Part shown: piece after piece, positions 5,756-37,996 of the stretch
Numbering within the stretch: position 1 is the stretch's first letter
Layout of the letters: the number at the start of each line of letters is the position of its first letter
Source of the DNA: Clostridia bacterium
GTDB lineage: Bacteria; Bacillota; Clostridia; Oscillospirales; Acutalibacteraceae
DNA: 44,404 nucleotides
NCBI GenBank assembly: GCA_017409265.1
Contig: JAFQSY010000068.1
Span: 1-44,404 of the forward strand
Direction: 5' to 3'
Position numbers and translations under genes: made by a program
Notes under the pieces: model-generated
Database searches by the model: none
Told to the model about the DNA's origin: nothing
What the model saw: the letters and a program-made list of their open reading frames with translations, nothing else

Positions 5756-7153
5756 ATGCTTTTCTCAAGTTTAACATTCTTGTTTGTTTTCCTGCCTGTT
5801 GTTATGGCGGGATATTATCTGCTGCCGATGAAGGCAAAAAACATCTGGCTTTTGGCGGCGAGCCTTTTCTTCTACTTTTACGGTGAACCGAAATATCTTG
5901 TGCTCATGCTTGCGGTTATAACCGTCAGCTACATTTTCGGTATTCTTACCGAAAAAACGCAGGGAACCGTGCGCAAAATCATGCTTGCTGTTTCAGTTTT
6001 ATTAAGCCTTTCAGCGCTGATTTGTTTTAAATACACAGACTTTTTTATTTCCGTAACAAATTCAATTTTCGGCTCGGATATCGATTTGCTCGGAATTGCC
6101 CTGCCAATTGGCATAAGCTTCTTCACCTTCCAGTCAATCAGCTATAACATTGACGTTTACAGAGGTGACGTGCCTGCACAGAAAAATCCGATTAACCTCG
6201 CACTCTATGTTTCTCTCTTTCCGCAGCTTGTCGCAGGTCCGATAGTCCGTTATCCCGACGTTGAGCGTGAGCTTCGCACAAGAAAGCACACGCTTGACGG
6301 CTTTGTATACGGCGTAAGAAGATTTGCAGTAGGCCTCGGCAAAAAAATCATGCTTGCAAACTCATTCGGCAGCTTCTGCGAGATTTTCAGAGAATCCGAT
6401 GAAAAATCAACCCTGTTCTTCTGGGGATATGCGGTTGCATATTCGCTTCAGGTTTATTTTGATTTCTCGGGTTACAGCGACATGGCAATCGGTCTGGGCA
6501 GCATGTTCGGCTTCAAATTTCCCGAAAATTTCCGCCATCCGTACATTTCAAAATCTGTCACGGAATTTTGGAGAAGATGGCACATTTCGCTCGGCAGCTG
6601 GTTCAGGGATTATGTTTATATCCCCATGGGCGGCAACAGAGTCAAAACGCCGAGATTTTTCTTTAATATTCTAACCGTATGGTTCTTAACAGGCTTTTGG
6701 CACGGCGCAGACTGGACCTTTATCATCTGGGGTCTTTATTTTGCGGCTCTGCTCCTGATTGAAAAGAGCATTCCGAAAAAAATCAAGGACAAGGCTCCTA
6801 CCGTTATCAGCCATATTTATCTTATCTTTGCCGTTCTTATCGGCTTTGTTATCTTCAACGCAAACGGTGTAGGCGGAATCGCATTTGACCTCAAGGGAAT
6901 GTTCACCGCCGCTTATCCCGCATGTACCCAAACAACTCTTTACTATCTCAAGAGCTATGCGGTTCTTTTTGTTATCGGTATAATCGGAGCAACCCCCGCA
7001 GTCAAAATTGCCGCCGAAAAAATCAACAACGGCAAAATCGGCTCAAAAATCTGCTCCGTTGCAGAGCCCGTTATCATTCTTACGCTGCTTGTTGCTGTCA
7101 CCGCATATCTCATCAACGGCTCATACAATCCGTTTCTCTATTTCAGATTTTAA
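5756..7153 (+). CDS. MBOAT family O-acyltransferase (AlgI/DltB-like)
   Basis: Integral membrane acyltransferase expected to pass acetyl or acyl groups across the membrane to an exported polysaccharide or wall polymer. The 465-residue protein has many membrane segments and the AlgI-type landmarks LPIGISFFTFQSISY, FPQLVAGPIVRY, FDFSGYSDMAIGLG, VTEFWRRWHISLGSWFRDYVYIPMGG and FLTGFWHGADW, with the likely catalytic His at about residue 316. AAAGGGGG precedes ATG 5756. The next gene, 14 bases downstream, is a DHHW protein, the usual partner in Gram-positive acylation loci. The acceptor polymer is unknown; no glycan synthesis genes are adjacent. Confidence 0.93.
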   Translation: MLFSSLTFLFVFLPVVMAGYYLLPMKAKNIWLLAASLFFYFYGEPKYLVLMLAVITVSYIFGILTEKTQGTVRKIMLAVSVLLSLSALICFKYTDFFISVTNSIFGSDIDLLGIALPIGISFFTFQSISYNIDVYRGDVPAQKNPINLALYVSLFPQLVAGPIVRYPDVERELRTRKHTLDGFVYGVRRFAVGLGKKIMLANSFGSFCEIFRESDEKSTLFFWGYAVAYSLQVYFDFSGYSDMAIGLGSMFGFKFPENFRHPYISKSVTEFWRRWHISLGSWFRDYVYIPMGGNRVKTPRFFFNILTVWFLTGFWHGADWTFIIWGLYFAALLLIEKSIPKKIKDKAPTVISHIYLIFAVLIGFVIFNANGVGGIAFDLKGMFTAAYPACTQTTLYYLKSYAVLFVIGIIGATPAVKIAAEKINNGKIGSKICSVAEPVIILTLLVAVTAYLINGSYNPFLYFRF

Positions 7154-7167
7154 AAAGGAGGTTTCCC

Positions 7168-8274
7168 ATGGGTAAAAAGATGCGCAACATTGCGTGCACA
7201 GTCTGCTTTGCGGCATTTATTATTGCCCTCGGAGCAGCCTGCTTTTTGAGAGAGCCCGTACAGATTCTTGTTTCGGAAAGGCGCAAGGCAACACAGATGC
7301 CCGAATTTTCCGTTGAAGCTGTTATGGACAAAAGTCTTTTTGACGATTTTGAAAAATATCTCACAGACCAATTTCCGCTGCGTGACGGCTTCCGTTCAAT
7401 CAATGCGGCAATCCGCATGAAGCTTTTCCGCCAAACGGATAACGGCGGAGTTTATCTTGCCGAAGGTCATATTTCCGAGTTTCAGTCAACACTCAACGAA
7501 AACTCGGTCAAAGCAACTGCCGATAAGCTCAATTCAATTTATGAAAAATATATCAGCGGCAAAAACGCCAAGGTTTACTGCTCGGTTGTTCCCGATAAGA
7601 ACTATTATCTTGCCGAAAAAAACGGCTATCCGTCGCTTGATTACGATAAAATGCTTGAGATTTTCACCTCAGAAATCAAGAACATGGAATATATTGACAT
7701 CTTCGATTGTCTGACCATTGATGACTATTATAAGACCGACTCCCATTGGAAGCAGGAAGAAATAAGTGCAGTTGTCGACCGATTAAGCGAGAAAATGGGA
7801 TTCAAAACCAGACCTTTCAGCGATTATAAAAATCAGAAGCTCTCCGATTTCGAAGGCGTTTACGCTCCGAGGCTTGCACTCGGCAGCACAAAAGACGAAA
7901 TAATCGCTCTTTCATCGCCAGTTACGGATTCCGCAAAGGTCTTTAACCTTGAAACGAACAAAACGACGCAGGGTGTTTATGATATGTCAAAGCTCGACGG
8001 CTATGATAAATATGAGGTGTTTCTTTCGGGCGCCGCCGCATTCCTGACAGTCGAAAATCCGCTTGCACAGGAAAAAAGAGAGCTTGTTATCTTCCGCGAT
8101 TCTTTCGGCTCATCGCTTGTACCGCTCATGCTTGAGGGCTACAGCAAAATCACCGTTGTTGACATCAGATATATCTCTCCGCAGATTCTCGGCGAATACG
8201 TCGATTTCACAGACTGCGACGTTCTTTTTATCTACAACACGCTTATTCTTAATCAGAGCAATATACTCAAATAA
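7168..8274 (+). CDS. DHHW family protein, exported partner of the MBOAT enzyme
   Basis: Membrane-anchored extracytoplasmic protein related to AlgX/AlgJ SGNH-like proteins, probably completing acyl transfer to the polymer. The 368-residue protein has an N-terminal membrane segment (about residues 6-25), an FDDFEKYLTDQFPLRDGF motif, the signature KTDSHW (Ser 192-His 193-Trp 194) and a C-terminal FRDSFGSSLVPLM block typical of this fold. The true start is ATG 7168 with AAAGGAGG at 7154-7161; the frame stays open upstream but that part overlaps the MBOAT gene. The two genes form one operon ended by the hairpin at 8278. Confidence 0.88.
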   Translation: MGKKMRNIACTVCFAAFIIALGAACFLREPVQILVSERRKATQMPEFSVEAVMDKSLFDDFEKYLTDQFPLRDGFRSINAAIRMKLFRQTDNGGVYLAEGHISEFQSTLNENSVKATADKLNSIYEKYISGKNAKVYCSVVPDKNYYLAEKNGYPSLDYDKMLEIFTSEIKNMEYIDIFDCLTIDDYYKTDSHWKQEEISAVVDRLSEKMGFKTRPFSDYKNQKLSDFEGVYAPRLALGSTKDEIIALSSPVTDSAKVFNLETNKTTQGVYDMSKLDGYDKYEVFLSGAAAFLTVENPLAQEKRELVIFRDSFGSSLVPLMLEGYSKITVVDIRYISPQILGEYVDFTDCDVLFIYNTLILNQSNILK

Positions 8275-22493: not shown

Positions 22494-23501
22494 TTACACG
22501 CCGTAATAAAAACCATCATCGGGGATTTTACCGCCGATTAACTCGGGATTATTCTGATTAAGGATATCAAGGATTGCATTAACTGCAGGTTTCATCTCTT
22601 CTCCGCCGATAAAGGCAAGGTTGCTGGCAGGAATAATGTAGGTTGCAAGAGTGGCTGTTTCACAGAAGCCTTCATCCAAAAGGAAAACCGGTGCGCTGTA
22701 AATGTTCGTATTGAGATAGTTGATTGAAATCTTGTTATAAGAAACAAATTCTTTTATGATATCGGGATTTGCGTCAATATATTCGCTTCTTGCAACGACA
22801 ACGCTCTGAACAAGCTTATTCTCGCTGATTTTATTCCACTCGGCATTGATATCAAGCGCTCTTCTGTATTCCTGATTGTTTGAAAGCACCTTGGATGCAT
22901 AAGGTTCTGGAAGAATAAGGATTTCTGCGGTACCGCTGTCGGTAAGCATTGCCGCTTCAGCATTATCCGCCTTGAACTGAATGTCGATATTCTTTTCGGG
23001 ATTGATGCCGTTTTGCTCAAAAATATAGTTTATGACATTTTCATAAGCCGTTCCCTGATATGCAGCATAGACGGTCTTGCCCTTAAGGTCTTTTATACTC
23101 TTGATTTTTTCGCCTTTTTCAACAACGCTGAAAAATCCGAGAGAATTGACCGCAAGAATTTTAACTGCACCGTTTGTTTCGTTATAAAGCTTTGCGGCTG
23201 CATCAATTGGTAAGGTTGCAATATCTGCCTGACCGTTTTTGAGAAGAGCAACAACCTCGTCTGTTGTATCATAAAATGCGGTTTCGTAGTTATATTCTCT
23301 GTCAATCGAAAATTTTGTCAAGCCGAAACCAACAGGACCGTTAAGAGCGGCAATTTTCGTTTTTATTTCTCTGATATAGCTTGTGGCTGTTTCGGTAAGT
23401 GCTTCGGTTGTTTCTTCACCCGAACCACCGCCGCACGCAGCAAAGCCGAAAAGCATAATCAGAGCCATAAGCGCAGCTGCTGCCTTTTTAAGATTATTCA
23501 T
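22494..23501 (-). CDS. Orphan substrate-binding lipoprotein, NMT1/SsuA-like
   Basis: Periplasmic-type binding protein on a lipid anchor, 335 residues. The signal peptide ends in lipobox FAAC. The mature part has the NMT1/THI5/SsuA pattern: YNYETAFYDTTDEVVALLKNG, QADIATLPIDAAAKLYN, SLGFFSVVEKGEKIKSIKDLKGKTVYA, and EILILPEPYASKV. Such proteins bind thiamine precursors, sulfonates, nitrate or similar small molecules. No permease or ATPase gene is adjacent, which is unusual. The start is ATG 23501 with GAAAGG 9 bases before it; the ORF overlaps the end of the upstream fusion gene by 8 bases, so translation is probably coupled. Confidence 0.82.
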   Translation of the reverse strand: MNNLKKAAAALMALIMLFGFAACGGGSGEETTEALTETATSYIREIKTKIAALNGPVGFGLTKFSIDREYNYETAFYDTTDEVVALLKNGQADIATLPIDAAAKLYNETNGAVKILAVNSLGFFSVVEKGEKIKSIKDLKGKTVYAAYQGTAYENVINYIFEQNGINPEKNIDIQFKADNAEAAMLTDSGTAEILILPEPYASKVLSNNQEYRRALDINAEWNKISENKLVQSVVVARSEYIDANPDIIKEFVSYNKISINYLNTNIYSAPVFLLDEGFCETATLATYIIPASNLAFIGGEEMKPAVNAILDILNQNNPELIGGKIPDDGFYYGV

Positions 23502-25143
23502 ATTGTTCAACCTTTCTGTCAGTTTTTATAGCATCATTATACATTTCACTGTCGGTATTGTCAACAGCACGGCTCTGCGCAAGAACAGCATTGAGATATT
23601 CTGCGATTCCGCTTTTTTTAGCCTTCAGTTTAAGATAATAACGGTTGGAATATTTATCCTTGACCGAAGTGAGCATTCCTTCGCTGTCAACAGTAATTTT
23701 AACAGGCTTTGAAAGTGAATAATAATCCCCGCAGCCCTCAAAAGCATAGTGAACAGCAGTCAAATCCCAACTGTCGCGCAGCATTGGCGGTTCTTTTTTT
23801 TCGAGATATTCCTTATAGCAATCATAAACGGGACTGTCATTTTCAGGTACTTCCGAAAAACCTGTCATCATGCCGTGACCGATTTCGAAACCCGAACAGA
23901 CAATGACATTTTTGAAGCCTTCAAAAACAGTTGTTGCCGCCTTCGGGTCGCATTCAATGTTGAACTCCTTGCCCGAGGGAAATTTGCCTGCCATGGCAAC
24001 GATTGAATTGACCTTTGAATTGAAAAGCTTCGGTTCTTTTTCAAGAATTTCCGCAAGATTTGTGAGCGGACCGACAGAGATTACCGTTACTGAATCATCG
24101 TCTGCCTTTGAAAGAAGTTTTTTATAAAAGTCAGCAGCAAGGCTTGCGTTTTTCGCTTTGATATCATATTTTTTTGCGAGCGGTTTATTATATTTATCGC
24201 TGTCTTTGAGAATTTCATAGCCTTTATGCTCACCCAGAGGAATATCAAGCCCGAAGTGTTCCGAGAGCACAGCAAGAGCATCCGTACCATATGGATTTGA
24301 GGTACAGTTTGCTGCGCCGAGAATTTTGATTCCGTGCTTCTCCGCCATATGAGCCATAACGGCAAAAGCACCCGCATCGTCGCAGTCGGGGCCGATATCA
24401 GTATCAAAAATAACGCTTCGCTTGCTGTCCTTGAGAGGCTCAAACGGCGGTTTGCCGTATTCATCCTCTTTTTTCTTTGATTTCATTGCGTATCTGACAA
24501 CCCATATTACAAGAGCAATCGGGAGAAGAATTGCGGCAATGCCTACAAGCTGCTGCATGGGCACATAGTCATAAAGTCCGTCGCCGAGGATGGTGAAAAG
24601 AATAACTCTCGGCAGTATTCCGCCGAGCGAAAGCAGAATATAGGGGAGAAATCTCATTCTTACCGCTCCGAGGAAAAGGCTGACTATGTCAATCGGAAAA
24701 ACGGGAAGTGCACGGATTGCAAAAATTGCCGATAGCTTGTTTTTTCCGTGAAGCTCCAAGATTTTATCGCCGTATTTGATTTTTTTGAGTTTATTTATGA
24801 CGTACGGTCCGCCCATAATAAGACCGAAAAGATATGTCGCAGAAACCTCAATAAGAATGCCTACAGCATTGATAAGTATTGCCCAATGAGTGGGAAACGC
24901 AAGCCCTACGGCTATATAAATCAGCGAAGCAGGCACAACAAAAACAAGCGATTTGAGCAGATATATGCCGAGAATTGCGGCAACTGCGGCAAAAACACCC
25001 GAGCTTGCCTCAATAAGCGCGCGTATATCAATATTTTTAAATTCATCATATTTCCAGATAATGACTGCAATTATCAACACCGAAACAATAATTCTTACGG
25101 CAAGACCCATCGCATGAGAACTGCGGAGCAATTTTTCTTTCAT
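23494..25143 (-). CDS. VTT (DedA/TVP38) membrane domain fused to nucleoside hydrolase
   Basis: A two-domain protein of 549 residues. Residues 1-222 are a VTT-family membrane domain with the typical FAIRALPVFPIDIVSLFLGAVRM motif (about 141-163) and GGILPRV. A basic linker (KSKKKEDEYGK, 221-231) leads to a ribonucleoside hydrolase domain (about 243-530) with the calcium-site motif DTDIGPDCDDAGA (247-259), ISVGPLTNLA (356-364), FNIECDPKAA (394-403) and a C-terminal SWDLTAVHYAF. The basic linker places the hydrolase in the cytosol. Stand-alone members cleave nucleosides to ribose and base; VTT proteins include lipid scramblases and carrier recyclers. AAGG precedes ATG 25143. The pairing with an overlapping binding lipoprotein suggests linked uptake and cleavage, which is inference. 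Confidence 0.86.
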   Translation of the reverse strand: MKEKLLRSSHAMGLAVRIIVSVLIIAVIIWKYDEFKNIDIRALIEASSGVFAAVAAILGIYLLKSLVFVVPASLIYIAVGLAFPTHWAILINAVGILIEVSATYLFGLIMGGPYVINKLKKIKYGDKILELHGKNKLSAIFAIRALPVFPIDIVSLFLGAVRMRFLPYILLSLGGILPRVILFTILGDGLYDYVPMQQLVGIAAILLPIALVIWVVRYAMKSKKKEDEYGKPPFEPLKDSKRSVIFDTDIGPDCDDAGAFAVMAHMAEKHGIKILGAANCTSNPYGTDALAVLSEHFGLDIPLGEHKGYEILKDSDKYNKPLAKKYDIKAKNASLAADFYKKLLSKADDDSVTVISVGPLTNLAEILEKEPKLFNSKVNSIVAMAGKFPSGKEFNIECDPKAATTVFEGFKNVIVCSGFEIGHGMMTGFSEVPENDSPVYDCYKEYLEKKEPPMLRDSWDLTAVHYAFEGCGDYYSLSKPVKITVDSEGMLTSVKDKYSNRYYLKLKAKKSGIAEYLNAVLAQSRAVDNTDSEMYNDAIKTDRKVEQYE

Positions 25144-25306: not shown

Positions 25307-26743
25307 ATGATGACCGCAAAAGAGAAAATAGAAAGAGCTACAGCTTCGGTGGCTTTTGACGGCATATATAAATATGTTAAGAAAAACCCCGAAGAAAACA
25401 TAATAAAGCTCATTGACCTTGCCCAAAAGCTTATGGGAGGAGCGTTCCCCGAAAAAAACTTTGATTCCTTCAGAAAAGCTATTCAGGATAAGGATAATGT
25501 CTGGCACACTTTCGCAATGAACATCCTTAACAATGCTGACGGCGAGGTTATCAAGAAAATGCTTCTTGCTCTCGGACTCGGTGCAGGCGTTAACGGCACA
25601 AAGGCTGTCAGAGCAAACAGAGAAAAATATAAATGCAACATTCCCTTTATCATGCTCTTTGACCCCACCAGTGCATGCAACCTCAAGTGTAAGGGCTGCT
25701 GGTCCGCTGAATACGGTCATAAGTCAAACCTCTCGCTTGATGAAATGAGAAGCATCGTCAATCAGGGAACAGAGCTCGGAACTCACCTTTATATGCTTAC
25801 GGGCGGTGAACCGCTCATAAAGAAAAAAGAAATCCTCACTCTTTGCCGTGAGAATCCCGACTGCGCATTTCTTGCTTATACAAACGCAACCCTCATCGAC
25901 CAGGCATTCTGCGACGAAATGAAGGAAGTCGGAAATCTTACCCTTGCATTGAGCATTGAAGGCTCGGAAGAAAGCAACGACTACCGCAGAGGCGACGGCG
26001 CATACAAAACAACAATTGAGGCAATGGACCTTCTGAAAAAGAACGGGTTGCTTTACGGAATCTCGGTTTGCTATACAAGTAAAAACATTCCGTATGTCAC
26101 AAGCGACGAATTTCTTGACCTCATGGTTGAAAAAGGCGTAATCTTCGGTCTTTATTTCAACTATATGCCCGTCGGCAAGGATGCCGTCGTTGAGCTTATT
26201 CCGACTCCCGAACAAAGAGTGTTCATGTATAAATGGCTCCGCAAGGTCAGAAACGGAAAAACAGGCAAACCCATGTTTATCATGGATTTCCAGAACGATG
26301 CGGAATATGTCGGCGGATGCATTGCAGGCGGCAGAAACTATTTCCACATTAATTCCGAGGGCGACATGGAGCCCTGCGTTTTCATTCATTATTCGGATTC
26401 CAACATCAGAAACAAAACAATTGTCGAAGGTCTTAAAAGTCCTCTTTTCCAGGCATATTGGCACAACCAGCCATTTAACGATAACCACTTAAGACCCTGC
26501 CCGATGCTTGAAAATCCCGAATGCTTGCGAAAGATAATTGCAGAAACGGGCGCAAAATCAACCGACCTCATCGAGCCCGAAAGCGCCGAAACACTTTGTG
26601 CAAAATGCGATAAGTTTGCGGCGGCGTGGAAACCCGTTGCGGAAGAACTCTGGAATTCAACCAAGCACCCCAACCCCAAAACACAGTTTTACCGCGACAC
26701 TCCCGAAGGACGCGCAGAACTTGAAAAAAAGAATAACCAATAA
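25307..26743 (+). CDS. Radical SAM enzyme with Cys-rich C-terminus, substrate unknown
   Basis: A [4Fe-4S] radical S-adenosylmethionine enzyme of 478 residues. An all-alpha N-terminal region of about 110 residues precedes the CX3CX2C cluster motif (Cys 124, 128, 131). The TIM-barrel follows, with MLTGGEPLI and LSIEGSEESNDYRRG as the SAM-contact segments. The C-terminus is Cys-rich (CIAGG, EPCVF, RPCPML, PECL, LCAKC), the pattern of a SPASM-like auxiliary cluster domain, as in enzymes that modify peptides or other macromolecules. No candidate peptide precursor was seen beside it. AAGGAGGG lies before ATG 25307. It is alone between two divergent or convergent genes. Confidence 0.86.
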   Translation: MMTAKEKIERATASVAFDGIYKYVKKNPEENIIKLIDLAQKLMGGAFPEKNFDSFRKAIQDKDNVWHTFAMNILNNADGEVIKKMLLALGLGAGVNGTKAVRANREKYKCNIPFIMLFDPTSACNLKCKGCWSAEYGHKSNLSLDEMRSIVNQGTELGTHLYMLTGGEPLIKKKEILTLCRENPDCAFLAYTNATLIDQAFCDEMKEVGNLTLALSIEGSEESNDYRRGDGAYKTTIEAMDLLKKNGLLYGISVCYTSKNIPYVTSDEFLDLMVEKGVIFGLYFNYMPVGKDAVVELIPTPEQRVFMYKWLRKVRNGKTGKPMFIMDFQNDAEYVGGCIAGGRNYFHINSEGDMEPCVFIHYSDSNIRNKTIVEGLKSPLFQAYWHNQPFNDNHLRPCPMLENPECLRKIIAETGAKSTDLIEPESAETLCAKCDKFAAAWKPVAEELWNSTKHPNPKTQFYRDTPEGRAELEKKNNQ

Positions 26744-31223: not shown

Positions 31224-31232
31224 GTCATCAAC

Positions 31233-31308
31233 AAAGGGGTGCTGCCTTTCGGCGGCTGAGATTATACCCTCAAACCTGATCCCGGTAATGCGGGCGTAGG
31301 AAGCATAC
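31233..31308 (+). promoter_or_regulatory. TPP riboswitch (THI box)
   Basis: Thiamine pyrophosphate aptamer controlling thiT. The conserved parts are in order: GGGGTGC (31236-31242), CTGAGA (31256-31261) followed by TATACCC, ACCTGATC (31274-31281), and GGTAATGCGGGCGTAGGAAGC (split here at 31284-31304). It is followed by a strong terminator hairpin, so ligand binding should stop transcription of the thiamine transporter gene. Confidence 0.96.
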
Positions 31309-31323
31309 GGAAAGTGTTTTTAC

Positions 31324-31391: not shown

Positions 31392-31973
31392 ATGAGAAAA
31401 AACTTATCAAAAACACAGATCCTTGCCGAAAGTGCAATAATGGTTGCGCTTTCAATCGCCGTTTTCCTCGTTTCGGATTTAATTCCGTGGCCGTTTCTCT
31501 ACGGCGGCGGCTTCAGCCTTTTCGGTCAGGTGCCGCTGATTATAGTTTCTTATCGCCACGGCATCAAAAACGGTATTGCCGCATCACTCGCTCTGGCAAT
31601 CTTTGAAATGATAATGGGATATAAGAACTTTGTTCACGTAACAGGTCTTGCCGCCTATCTCACCGTTGCGCTTGCGGATTACATCATCGCTTTCGGATGT
31701 CTGGGACTCGGAGGCATGTTCAAAGGAAAATTCAACGGCAGGCAGTCATTGGAGCTTGCCTTGGGCGGTACGGTTGTCTGCATAATCAGATTCATTTGTC
31801 ACTACATCAGCGGCGTCACAATTTGGAAAGACTACTGCCCTGAGGGAATGGCTGTTGAACTTTATTCGTTCTTCTATAACGGTTCATATATGGCTGTTGA
31901 ACTCGTTCTTACAGTTATTGGTCTCATTGCCGTCGGAAAATTCATTAATCTTGACAAGAAAAAGCTTATATAA
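31392..31973 (+). CDS. thiT: ThiT, thiamine-binding subunit of an ECF transporter
   Basis: Membrane S-component that binds thiamine and works with the shared energy-coupling factor module (encoded elsewhere). The 193-residue protein has the family length and about six membrane segments. Characteristic blocks are LIPWPFLYGGGFSLFGQVPLI in the N-terminal half and RFICHYISGVTIW..CPEGM in the C-terminal half, which line the thiamine site in known ThiT. AAAGGATT precedes ATG 31392. The upstream TPP riboswitch confirms the substrate. Confidence 0.95.
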   Translation: MRKNLSKTQILAESAIMVALSIAVFLVSDLIPWPFLYGGGFSLFGQVPLIIVSYRHGIKNGIAASLALAIFEMIMGYKNFVHVTGLAAYLTVALADYIIAFGCLGLGGMFKGKFNGRQSLELALGGTVVCIIRFICHYISGVTIWKDYCPEGMAVELYSFFYNGSYMAVELVLTVIGLIAVGKFINLDKKKLI

Positions 31974-36403: not shown

Positions 36404-37996
36404 TTAATGTAATATGCCGATTATCTGAGCTTCAATATCCGTACCGACGTTGTTATTAATAATGATATCCGATTTTTCGGTGTAATATTCCGTCGAGGGC
36501 TGGGCATTTATGCGCAGCCTTGCATCAGATTCCGATATCGAATCACGCTTCATTATTCTTTCAAGACGTGTTTTCTCATCGGCAACAACGCAGATATTCT
36601 TTTCACATACCGCAACAAGCGGACTGTCAAACAGCAGCGCCGCATCAATCACAGCCGCCTTTGCACCGCTCTTTTCGGCGGTATGTATCTCTTCGATTGC
36701 AAGGCGTGTTATTTCGGGATGGGTTATTGCACTCAAAGCCTTTGTGCCTTCGGGAGTCGAAAAAGCCCGCCTTGCAAGCTCACGTCGGTCAAGAACACTG
36801 TCTTTGATAATATCCGCACCGAATCTTTTTGAAAGCATGGCAATAACCTCGGGGTTTTCAACGGCTTTTCTTGCGAGAATATCGGTGTCAACTATATGAC
36901 AGCCTTTTTTTAATAGTATTTCTCCGACGGTTGTTTTGCCTGCACCCGTCTGACCCGTAAGCCCGATAACGGGAATGCTTATATCCAAATCAATCACACG
37001 GAAAGCGGCAGAGCGCAAAAGTCTGTTATAGACAGCAAGACCGACTCCGCTTGTAATCGGGCATCTTACAAATGCTTTTTCGCAGCCGATTGCATCAACC
37101 TCACGCAGAGCATCAAAAATCATGTGTGCCTGCGAGATATCGTCATTCTCTTTTCCGTATTCGATATATTTCTCAAAGTGCTTTCCCTCTCCCTCAAAGC
37201 AGACGGCGCAGACCGTTTCTTTTTGGGCAAGAAGGAAATTTTTATACTGTTCAAAGCTGCCTTTAATTATCGTGACCTGTGCAGCAGGAGCATAATGCTT
37301 ATATTTCATGCCGGGGGACTCCGCCTTTTCACCCTCACGGAGCTTTTCAAAAACAGCAGGTGAAATCTGAATTGCACCAAGCACCGCTTCAAGCTGCTCG
37401 GGGGTAATTCCGCCGGGTCTTAAAAGAGTCGGCGGCTCTGTTGCGAGAGTCACAACAGTTGACTCAACGCCGACGGAGCATTCTCCGCCGTCAACAACGG
37501 CATCAATTTTTCCGTCAAGATCCTCAATAACGTGCGATGCCTTTGTGGGGCTGGGTTTTCCCGATGCATTTGCACTCGGCGCCGCAAGCGGCAAGCCCGA
37601 TTCCATTATGATTTCCCTTGCACATTCGTGCGACGGCATGCGTATTGCAACCGTATCAAGCCCTGCGCTGACCTCATTCGGGATAAGCGCCGATTTTTTC
37701 ATTATAACCGTCAGCGGACCGGGCCAATATTCTTTTGCAAGCGAATATACTCTCGGGTCAACCTTTTCAACAAGCGGCTCAATCTCCTCAAGCGATGCAA
37801 CATGGACAATCAGCGGATTATCCTGCGGTCTGCCCTTGGCAATAAAAATCTTTCTGACCGCTTCGCCGTCAAGTGCATTGGCTGCAAGACCGTAAACAGT
37901 TTCTGTGGGTATGGCAACAAGACCGCCGTTTTTCAATATTTCGGCAGCCGTGCTGATTGATTTTTTATCATTGGATTTCAAATAAAGTGTTTTCAT
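36404..37996 (-). CDS. Sua5/TsaC-CoaE fusion: threonylcarbamoyl-AMP synthase plus dephospho-CoA kinase
   Basis: A 530-residue fusion of two essential enzymes. Residues 1-205 are a YrdC/Sua5 domain with KSISTAAEIL, VAIPTETVYGLAA and KGRPQDNPLIVHV, which makes threonylcarbamoyl-AMP for the tRNA t6A modification. The Sua5 linker ESPGMKYKHYAP (227-238) and C-terminal domain run to about 340. Residues 342-530 are a complete dephospho-CoA kinase with P-loop GLTGQTGAGKTT, VDTD, THPEI and LERIMKRD. Both halves keep their key motifs. Few other bases separate it from prfA (3-base gap), and a separate coaE is not seen in the window. Start ATG 37996 has only a weak GTGAG site, suggesting coupling to prfA. 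Confidence 0.9.
   Translation of the reverse strand: MKTLYLKSNDKKSISTAAEILKNGGLVAIPTETVYGLAANALDGEAVRKIFIAKGRPQDNPLIVHVASLEEIEPLVEKVDPRVYSLAKEYWPGPLTVIMKKSALIPNEVSAGLDTVAIRMPSHECAREIIMESGLPLAAPSANASGKPSPTKASHVIEDLDGKIDAVVDGGECSVGVESTVVTLATEPPTLLRPGGITPEQLEAVLGAIQISPAVFEKLREGEKAESPGMKYKHYAPAAQVTIIKGSFEQYKNFLLAQKETVCAVCFEGEGKHFEKYIEYGKENDDISQAHMIFDALREVDAIGCEKAFVRCPITSGVGLAVYNRLLRSAAFRVIDLDISIPVIGLTGQTGAGKTTVGEILLKKGCHIVDTDILARKAVENPEVIAMLSKRFGADIIKDSVLDRRELARRAFSTPEGTKALSAITHPEITRLAIEEIHTAEKSGAKAAVIDAALLFDSPLVAVCEKNICVVADEKTRLERIMKRDSISESDARLRINAQPSTEYYTEKSDIIINNNVGTDIEAQIIGILH

Follow-up and report, generated by a model that had tools for sequence, protein, structure and literature searches.

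A VTT membrane domain and a nucleoside hydrolase joined in one reading frame in a genus of Clostridia

We describe VTT-NH, a protein of a Clostridia bacterium (Acutalibacteraceae) in which a VTT (DedA/TVP38) membrane domain is joined to a nucleoside hydrolase (NH). Its gene lies in a stretch of 44,404 nucleotides (contig JAFQSY010000068.1, hereafter the window). Judged from sequence, VTT-NH is a new combination of known families, real and under selection, and is restricted to one genus in the sampled genomes. A preliminary description of the window had seen one frame holding a complete VTT domain and a complete NH, which was confirmed by Pfam scores and by 23 full-length copies in the genus. 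It had also regarded the architecture as undescribed, and no paper joining the terms was found in the open-licence PubMed Central (PMC) literature. The parts of the gene are as follows.

23494..25143, minus strand: VTT-NH fusion gene, a single frame
24460..25143, minus strand (residues 1-228): VTT domain, a YdjX-like membrane domain, by Pfam VTT_dom (64.8 bits) and the helices of an AlphaFold2 (AF2) model
24424..24459, minus strand (residues 229-240): junction or linker, where the end of solo VTT proteins meets the start of solo NHs
23563..24423, minus strand (residues 241-527): nucleoside hydrolase domain, PF01156
24376..24405, minus strand (residues 247-256): aspartate motif DTDIGPDCDD, two residues longer than DXDXXXDD
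23752..23772, minus strand (residues 458-464): SWDLTAV motif, which holds D460, by position the third Ca2+ ligand

The VTT_dom cut-off is 33.9 bits, and PF01156 (IU_nuc_hydro) matched at 85.1 bits against a cut-off of 34.2, with the NH fold covering the whole domain. Four of the 11 solo VTT genes of the genus (G005, G031, G033 and G063) end at residue 228-229 in window numbering, and the proteins of G005 and G031 are 229 amino acids long; the remaining seven carry charged tails of 13-27 residues past the matched part. Eight of nine NH proteins of other loci with the exact motif have their first Met 14-20 residues ahead of the DTD, which is preceded in most of the nine by an F/Y-E-x-L lead-in, and the fusion has a similar one at 234-237. 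Because solo VTT ends and solo NH starts meet at the junction, both proteins appear to be retained almost whole with little added, and VTT-NH is best described as an end-to-end fusion of two ordinary proteins. The linker is modeled with low confidence (predicted local distance difference test, pLDDT, below 50 at residues 226-229).

The full fusion occupies one open reading frame (ORF) in 23 of the 45 genomes of the genus, namely the window's and 22 further ones from separate assemblies, the further copies being 43-86% identical in the aligned rows. Partial or damaged fusions occur in G003, where a stretch of N interrupts the VTT part, and in G011, which is cut by the contig end. In G027 (L037:6953-8571) the NH frame changes right behind the aspartate motif, through either a sequencing error or an ongoing loss. 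Eleven genomes (G005, G013, G019, G021, G031, G033, G034, G035, G036, G061 and G063) carry a VTT gene without NH, commonly in the same genomic place as the fusion, and G067 shows only the first 43 residues of VTT, at a contig end. This VTT gene, solo or fused, was not found in seven of the 45 (G001, G002, G014, G015, G022, G032 and G064), and several genomes are incomplete. An NH of the fusion subfamily without VTT was not seen within the genus. Likewise, no unfused precursor (a solo NH of the subfamily beside a VTT gene) was labeled in the mapped loci, where VTT was called at E 1e-6 to the window VTT and a few NH frames were masked by an opposite ORF, and tblastn for NH remnants behind the solo VTT genes gave chance-level matches only. 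Outside the genus, no fusion was found in samples of the order (394 genomes, E 1e-10), class (391, E 1e-60) and phylum (398, E 1e-60), which partly overlap and were scored for at most three candidates per genome; their only full-length match was the window's own genome.

At E 1e-6, each of the 26 genomes showing the fusion or its remnant has no further PF01156 match. Other strong PF01156 matches lie in two solo-VTT genomes (G019 and G035), and the difference in second NH genes, none in fused genomes versus two of 11 solo-VTT genomes, is not significant (p 0.087, with 25 fused genomes in the test and 26 in the PF01156 count). A weaker NH-like gene was picked up in G024 and G064 by the A1 profile only.

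A VTT tree was built from 49 rows, 24 of them labeled fused (the 23 full copies and the split G027). These 24 and 10 of the 11 solo congeners form one group (93/89), and the fused label needs four changes, which are most simply read as one gain of NH followed by three losses with VTT kept. The apparent losses fall in G034, in the G005/G013/G031/G033/G063 clade and in the G019/G021/G036/G061 clade. Solo G035 falls within the outgroup, which is thus not cleanly set apart by a single branch, and the method alone cannot separate gain from loss. The tree of the NH domains groups the 26 fused NHs with the solo pair L083/L084 at support 96/85; since only 4% of 200 bootstrap trees set the fused rows apart from all others by one branch, a single capture of the NH is likely, not proven. 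The ratio of nonsynonymous to synonymous substitution rates (dN/dS) in 10 pairs was 0.035-0.124 for VTT and 0.046-0.185 for NH, most dS values being high; in the least saturated pair (G008/G028) it was 0.056 and 0.124, respectively. The NH value exceeds the VTT value in nine of the 10 pairs. By these ratios, both halves are under purifying selection.

Residues E99, R144, P150, D152, G159 and R179 are present in all 53 VTT rows and invariant in a 42-row alignment, and the AF2 model (predicted template modeling score, pTM, 0.62) places putative VTT hairpin pairs at about 50-82 and 137-160. A profile from the 53 rows scored five E. coli members at 57.2 (YdjX), 33.5 (YdjZ), 26.4 (DedA), 12.4 (YqjA) and 2.8 bits (YqaA). 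YdjX and YdjZ are COG0398 members. With these two ranking top and no D or E near the turn of the first hairpin (residues 66-86), the VTT half fits the COG0398 subfamily of DedA/VTT proteins (TVP38/TMEM64 type), from which the window protein differs by its C-terminal NH. In Todor et al. (PMC10127716), which includes YdjZ among its models, the tip of hairpin 1 is described as free of acidic residues in COG0398 and as acidic in the COG0586 flippases of undecaprenyl phosphate (UndP); COG0398 proteins are considered unlikely to be UndP flippases, and phospholipid scrambling is raised instead. The commonest COG0398 fusions named there are with pyridine nucleotide-disulfide oxidoreductase domains, and the word "nucleoside" is absent from the main text. 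The UndP flippase reading of the VTT half is not supported, as the COG0586 feature is missing from residues 66-86.

For the NH half, no NCBIfam Rih equivalog cut-off was reached (best 51.5 of 382), and hence no named Rih subgroup is given; identity to the listed solved nucleoside hydrolases is 16-24%. D247, D253, D255 and E393 are found in 43 of 43 NH rows, and D249, D256, N395 and D460 in 42, the sole exception being G004. HMMER alignment to RihA maps D249 and D256 on D10 and D15. This alignment spans roughly the N-terminal two thirds of the NH half and does not reach D460; the assignment of D460 therefore rests on motif and place. According to PMC2898832, RihA has two Ca2+-binding aspartates (D249 and D256 here), an asparagine near the water (N395), a third Ca2+-binding aspartate (D460) and a histidine at the equivalent of residue 459. 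The latter position is always aromatic, with W in 19, Y in 13 and F in 11 of the 43 rows. Compared with the Ca2+-dependent ribonucleoside hydrolases (RihA/RihB/RihC, IAG-NH, plant NRh), the window NH thus differs by a two-residue motif insertion, an aromatic residue before the third Ca2+-binding aspartate and the joined membrane domain. Reading a substrate class from W459 (group II-like, purine) was set aside as a hint only, because Y and F occur there as well and a review doubts the rule.

The motif DTDIGPDCDD lacks the strict DXDXXXDD spacing and fits the longer DXDXXXXXDD form, which PMC10526354 reports for some fungal RihC. It also contains DXXXDXDD, a variant ascribed to HopQ1-like proteins in PMC3608555 and PMC11685791; XopQ is absent from the sequence matches up to E 5. 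In the fused copy of G004 (L051:804-2486; L051/L061), the equivalents of D249, D256, N395 and D460 are all changed and the fusion frame is intact, which suggests that the NH half is dead in that genome. Related NHs with the same DTDIGPDCDD motif and no VTT half are fused to a PfkB sugar kinase (L088:8986-10827) or carry an FtsK/SpoIIIE-like tail (L083:8881-10428 by Pfam, L084:8860-10452 by likeness), and another relative, L127, just under the PF01156 cut-off, follows an ABC transporter that has two BPD_transp_2 permeases. The PfkB kinase and ABC transporter as partners fit nucleoside hydrolysis to ribose.

We lean towards the reading that VTT-NH is a membrane-tethered, working, optional nucleosidase. 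The last transmembrane helix is predicted to end on the cytosolic side and the NH half would therefore face the cytosol, where it may hydrolyze ribonucleosides near the membrane, yielding base and ribose. The VTT half would keep its older job, transport or lipid scrambling, for which the hydrolase is not needed, and the tether would mainly position the enzyme, perhaps beside nucleoside uptake. A Bmp-type binding protein is encoded by 35 of the 45 congeners, among them 22 of the 26 that show the fusion or its remnant.

Several observations weigh against this reading. The aspartate motif departs from DXDXXXDD, and HopQ1, which has another departure, was without activity on standard nucleosides (PMC3608555). 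Topology and domain placement are predictions only, from a model with the pTM given above. The fused NHs rarely hold together in the bootstrap trees, G024 holds the second, weaker NH-like gene matched by the A1 profile, and four of the 26 fusion genomes (G007, G010, G016 and G023) have no Bmp match. Finally, the pairing of a second VTT protein with a kinase suggests, by analogy, more than mere placement.

This paralogue, VTT2, is 25% identical to the first VTT over 158 residues. In 36 of the 45 congeners its gene immediately precedes that of a galactokinase-like GHMP kinase (by coordinates, with seven genomes checked as ORFs), and in seven the two are fused (G002, G008, G015, G018, G026, G028 and G067, with G002 and G028 cut by contig ends); only G011 (kinase piece only) and G066 (neither) depart from this arrangement, which is thus seen in 43 of 45. 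By Pfam, L214 (L214:694-2790) holds both a VTT and a galactokinase domain, and the VTT score of L215 (L215:1848-3902) is 31.7, just below the cut-off. In the window's genome (L237:6149-8198) the VTT2 and kinase genes overlap by 8 nt, and further loci are L216-L221 and L223. Against the NCBIfam galactokinase models the kinase reaches 180 of 499 and 157 of 227 bits, short of both cut-offs. Outside the genus, VTT2 and kinase are side by side by coordinates in 26 of 128 family genomes, seven of which were checked as adjacent same-strand ORFs (L229, L230 and L232-L236); no intact kinase ORF was found in L228 (G1268), and G1255 has both in one 765-aa frame, by match coordinates only. In both systems a VTT protein has a cytosolic enzyme for small molecules as its neighbor or fusion partner; however, VTT-NH has an unrelated enzyme and a paralogous VTT, and a tight unfused tandem was not seen for VTT and NH. 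With VTT-NH and VTT2-kinase, VTT proteins in the genus have cytosolic sugar or nucleoside enzyme partners twice.

The VTT2-kinase pair is what one expects if VTT domains work with cytosolic small-molecule enzymes, and its occurrence in 43 congeners and in family genomes outside the genus speaks for transport-coupled hydrolysis, in which VTT would import a nucleoside or riboside that NH splits on arrival, and VTT2 would hand a sugar to its galactokinase-like partner. We consider this possible but unlikely, since 11 of the 45 congeners have VTT without NH, NH was apparently lost repeatedly, 35 genomes have the Bmp-type binding protein of the usual nucleoside route, and COG0398 proteins have been proposed as phospholipid scramblases (PMC10127716). 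The preliminary description had suggested that cleavage is tethered to transport or flipping, perhaps of a nucleoside or nucleotide-linked lipid headgroup; this found no support, given the three NH losses with VTT kept that the tree favors, the four catalytic changes of G004 and the low-confidence linker, and no observation in the analysis points to a lipid head group as substrate. A broader proposal, that YdjX-type VTTs in these gut Clostridia act as permeases for small molecules, each with its own capture enzyme in the cytosol (VTT-NH for nucleosides or ribosides, VTT2-kinase for a galactose-like sugar), is speculative and in our view rather improbable. If true, a DedA subfamily that has until now been proposed to move lipids would gain a role in transport. 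The joined nucleosidase and the paired sugar kinase name two candidate substrate classes for COG0398-type VTT/DedA proteins, and the apparent NH losses in close relatives supply natural VTT-only and VTT-NH proteins for comparison.

A working NH half might instead act on another ribosyl compound (a modified nucleoside, a 2',3'-cyclic nucleotide or an ADP-ribose-like molecule) and not on ordinary nucleosides. The HopQ1-like DXXXDXDD, the aromatic residue 459 in place of the RihA histidine, and a YfcE-type phosphodiesterase gene directly after the fusion in nine loci (G003, G006, G009, G011, G017, G018, G020, G026 and G060; overlapping in eight) are in its favor, and still we give it only a small chance. 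Still harder to sustain is that the NH is no longer an enzyme in the genus and is retained as a binding or stabilizing domain: the four residues lost from G004 with the frame kept, the frame change of G027 and the higher dN/dS of NH in nine of 10 pairs would agree with it, but the full residue set stands in the other 42 of 43 rows and NH dN/dS does not exceed 0.185. A sequencing or assembly artefact, which the preliminary description had named as the fault to look for, is practically ruled out. The named records of the congeners are assembled from metagenomes, with the gut of goat, sheep, deer, buffalo or horse as the source of many, but the 22 further full-length homologues refute it.

The neighboring features in the window are listed below.

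22494..23501, minus strand: ABC substrate-binding lipoprotein (NMT1/phosphonate-binding type), its ATG overlapping the fusion stop
25307..26743, plus strand: divergent radical S-adenosylmethionine (SAM) gene
31225..31319, plus strand: thiamine pyrophosphate (TPP) riboswitch before thiT, 55.4 bits (gathering score 54.3)
31392..31973, plus strand: thiT-like thiamine energy-coupling factor (ECF) S component, Pfam Thia_YuaJ 100.4 bits, above cut-off

The lipoprotein ATG at 23501 overlaps the fusion stop TAA (ATGAATAA), and the two genes may be translationally coupled. The divergent radical SAM gene lies less than 300 bp from the VTT gene in 31 of 38 VTT-bearing congeners (G004, G060 and G067 among them). 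It is 2.1 kb off in G003, elsewhere in G012, G035, G065 and G066, on another contig in G011, and was not found in G029. Both genes are present in 37 genomes, VTT only in one, radical SAM only in one and neither in six (Fisher p 5.9e-6, uncorrected for kinship). Of 37 mapped loci, 20 have thiamine transport genes beyond the radical SAM gene, and G036 has them on the other side; TPP riboswitches reach the gathering score in 13 of 24 searched loci, the window included. The thiT-like protein scored 105.1 bits against TIGR02357, just below the 108.45 cut-off. The same-strand neighbor varies by subclade: an NMT1-like lipoprotein gene follows the fusion in nine loci (including G027), the YfcE-type gene follows it in nine, and hydF (hydrogenase maturation GTPase) directly precedes it, away from the radical SAM gene, in four (L033, L034, L170 and L171, in G012, G029, G066 and G065; by Pfam on L034 only). 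Because the adjoining same-strand gene differs in this way and gene order shared within a genus is weak evidence, the fusion is not assigned to thiamine metabolism.

QueK/QueL-like queuine salvage, an analogy built on NH, radical SAM and ECF components, was dropped because the ECF component is ThiT-like and lies behind a TPP riboswitch. A lipid-type enzyme was not supported for the radical SAM neighbor, whose PDB matches are weak (SkfB, cytosylglucuronate decarboxylase). Nor is radical SAM-VTT adjacency a general rule, since VTT lies within about 1.5 kb in one of 30 radical SAM loci of the order sample, the window's own; of the other 29, L189, L192, L193 and L197 are cut to less than 300 bp on one side or nearly so. 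However, L103, L105, L106, L112 and L123 group solo VTT, radical SAM and thiamine transport genes, and in three further genomes of the order a VTT gene and a radical SAM relative are divergent, by coordinates, at a distance of 1.2 kb (G434:C37), 3.2 kb (G214:C31) and 3.1 kb (G399:C21).

Elsewhere in the window, the MBOAT and DHHW frames at 5756-7153 and 6922-8274 (plus strand) overlap by 232 nt when read from the first start codon, and the DHHW start is probably later. A 530-aa frame at 36404-37996 (minus strand) joins a Sua5/YrdC threonylcarbamoyl-AMP synthase to a CoaE dephospho-CoA kinase; in L049 the two halves match separate genes.
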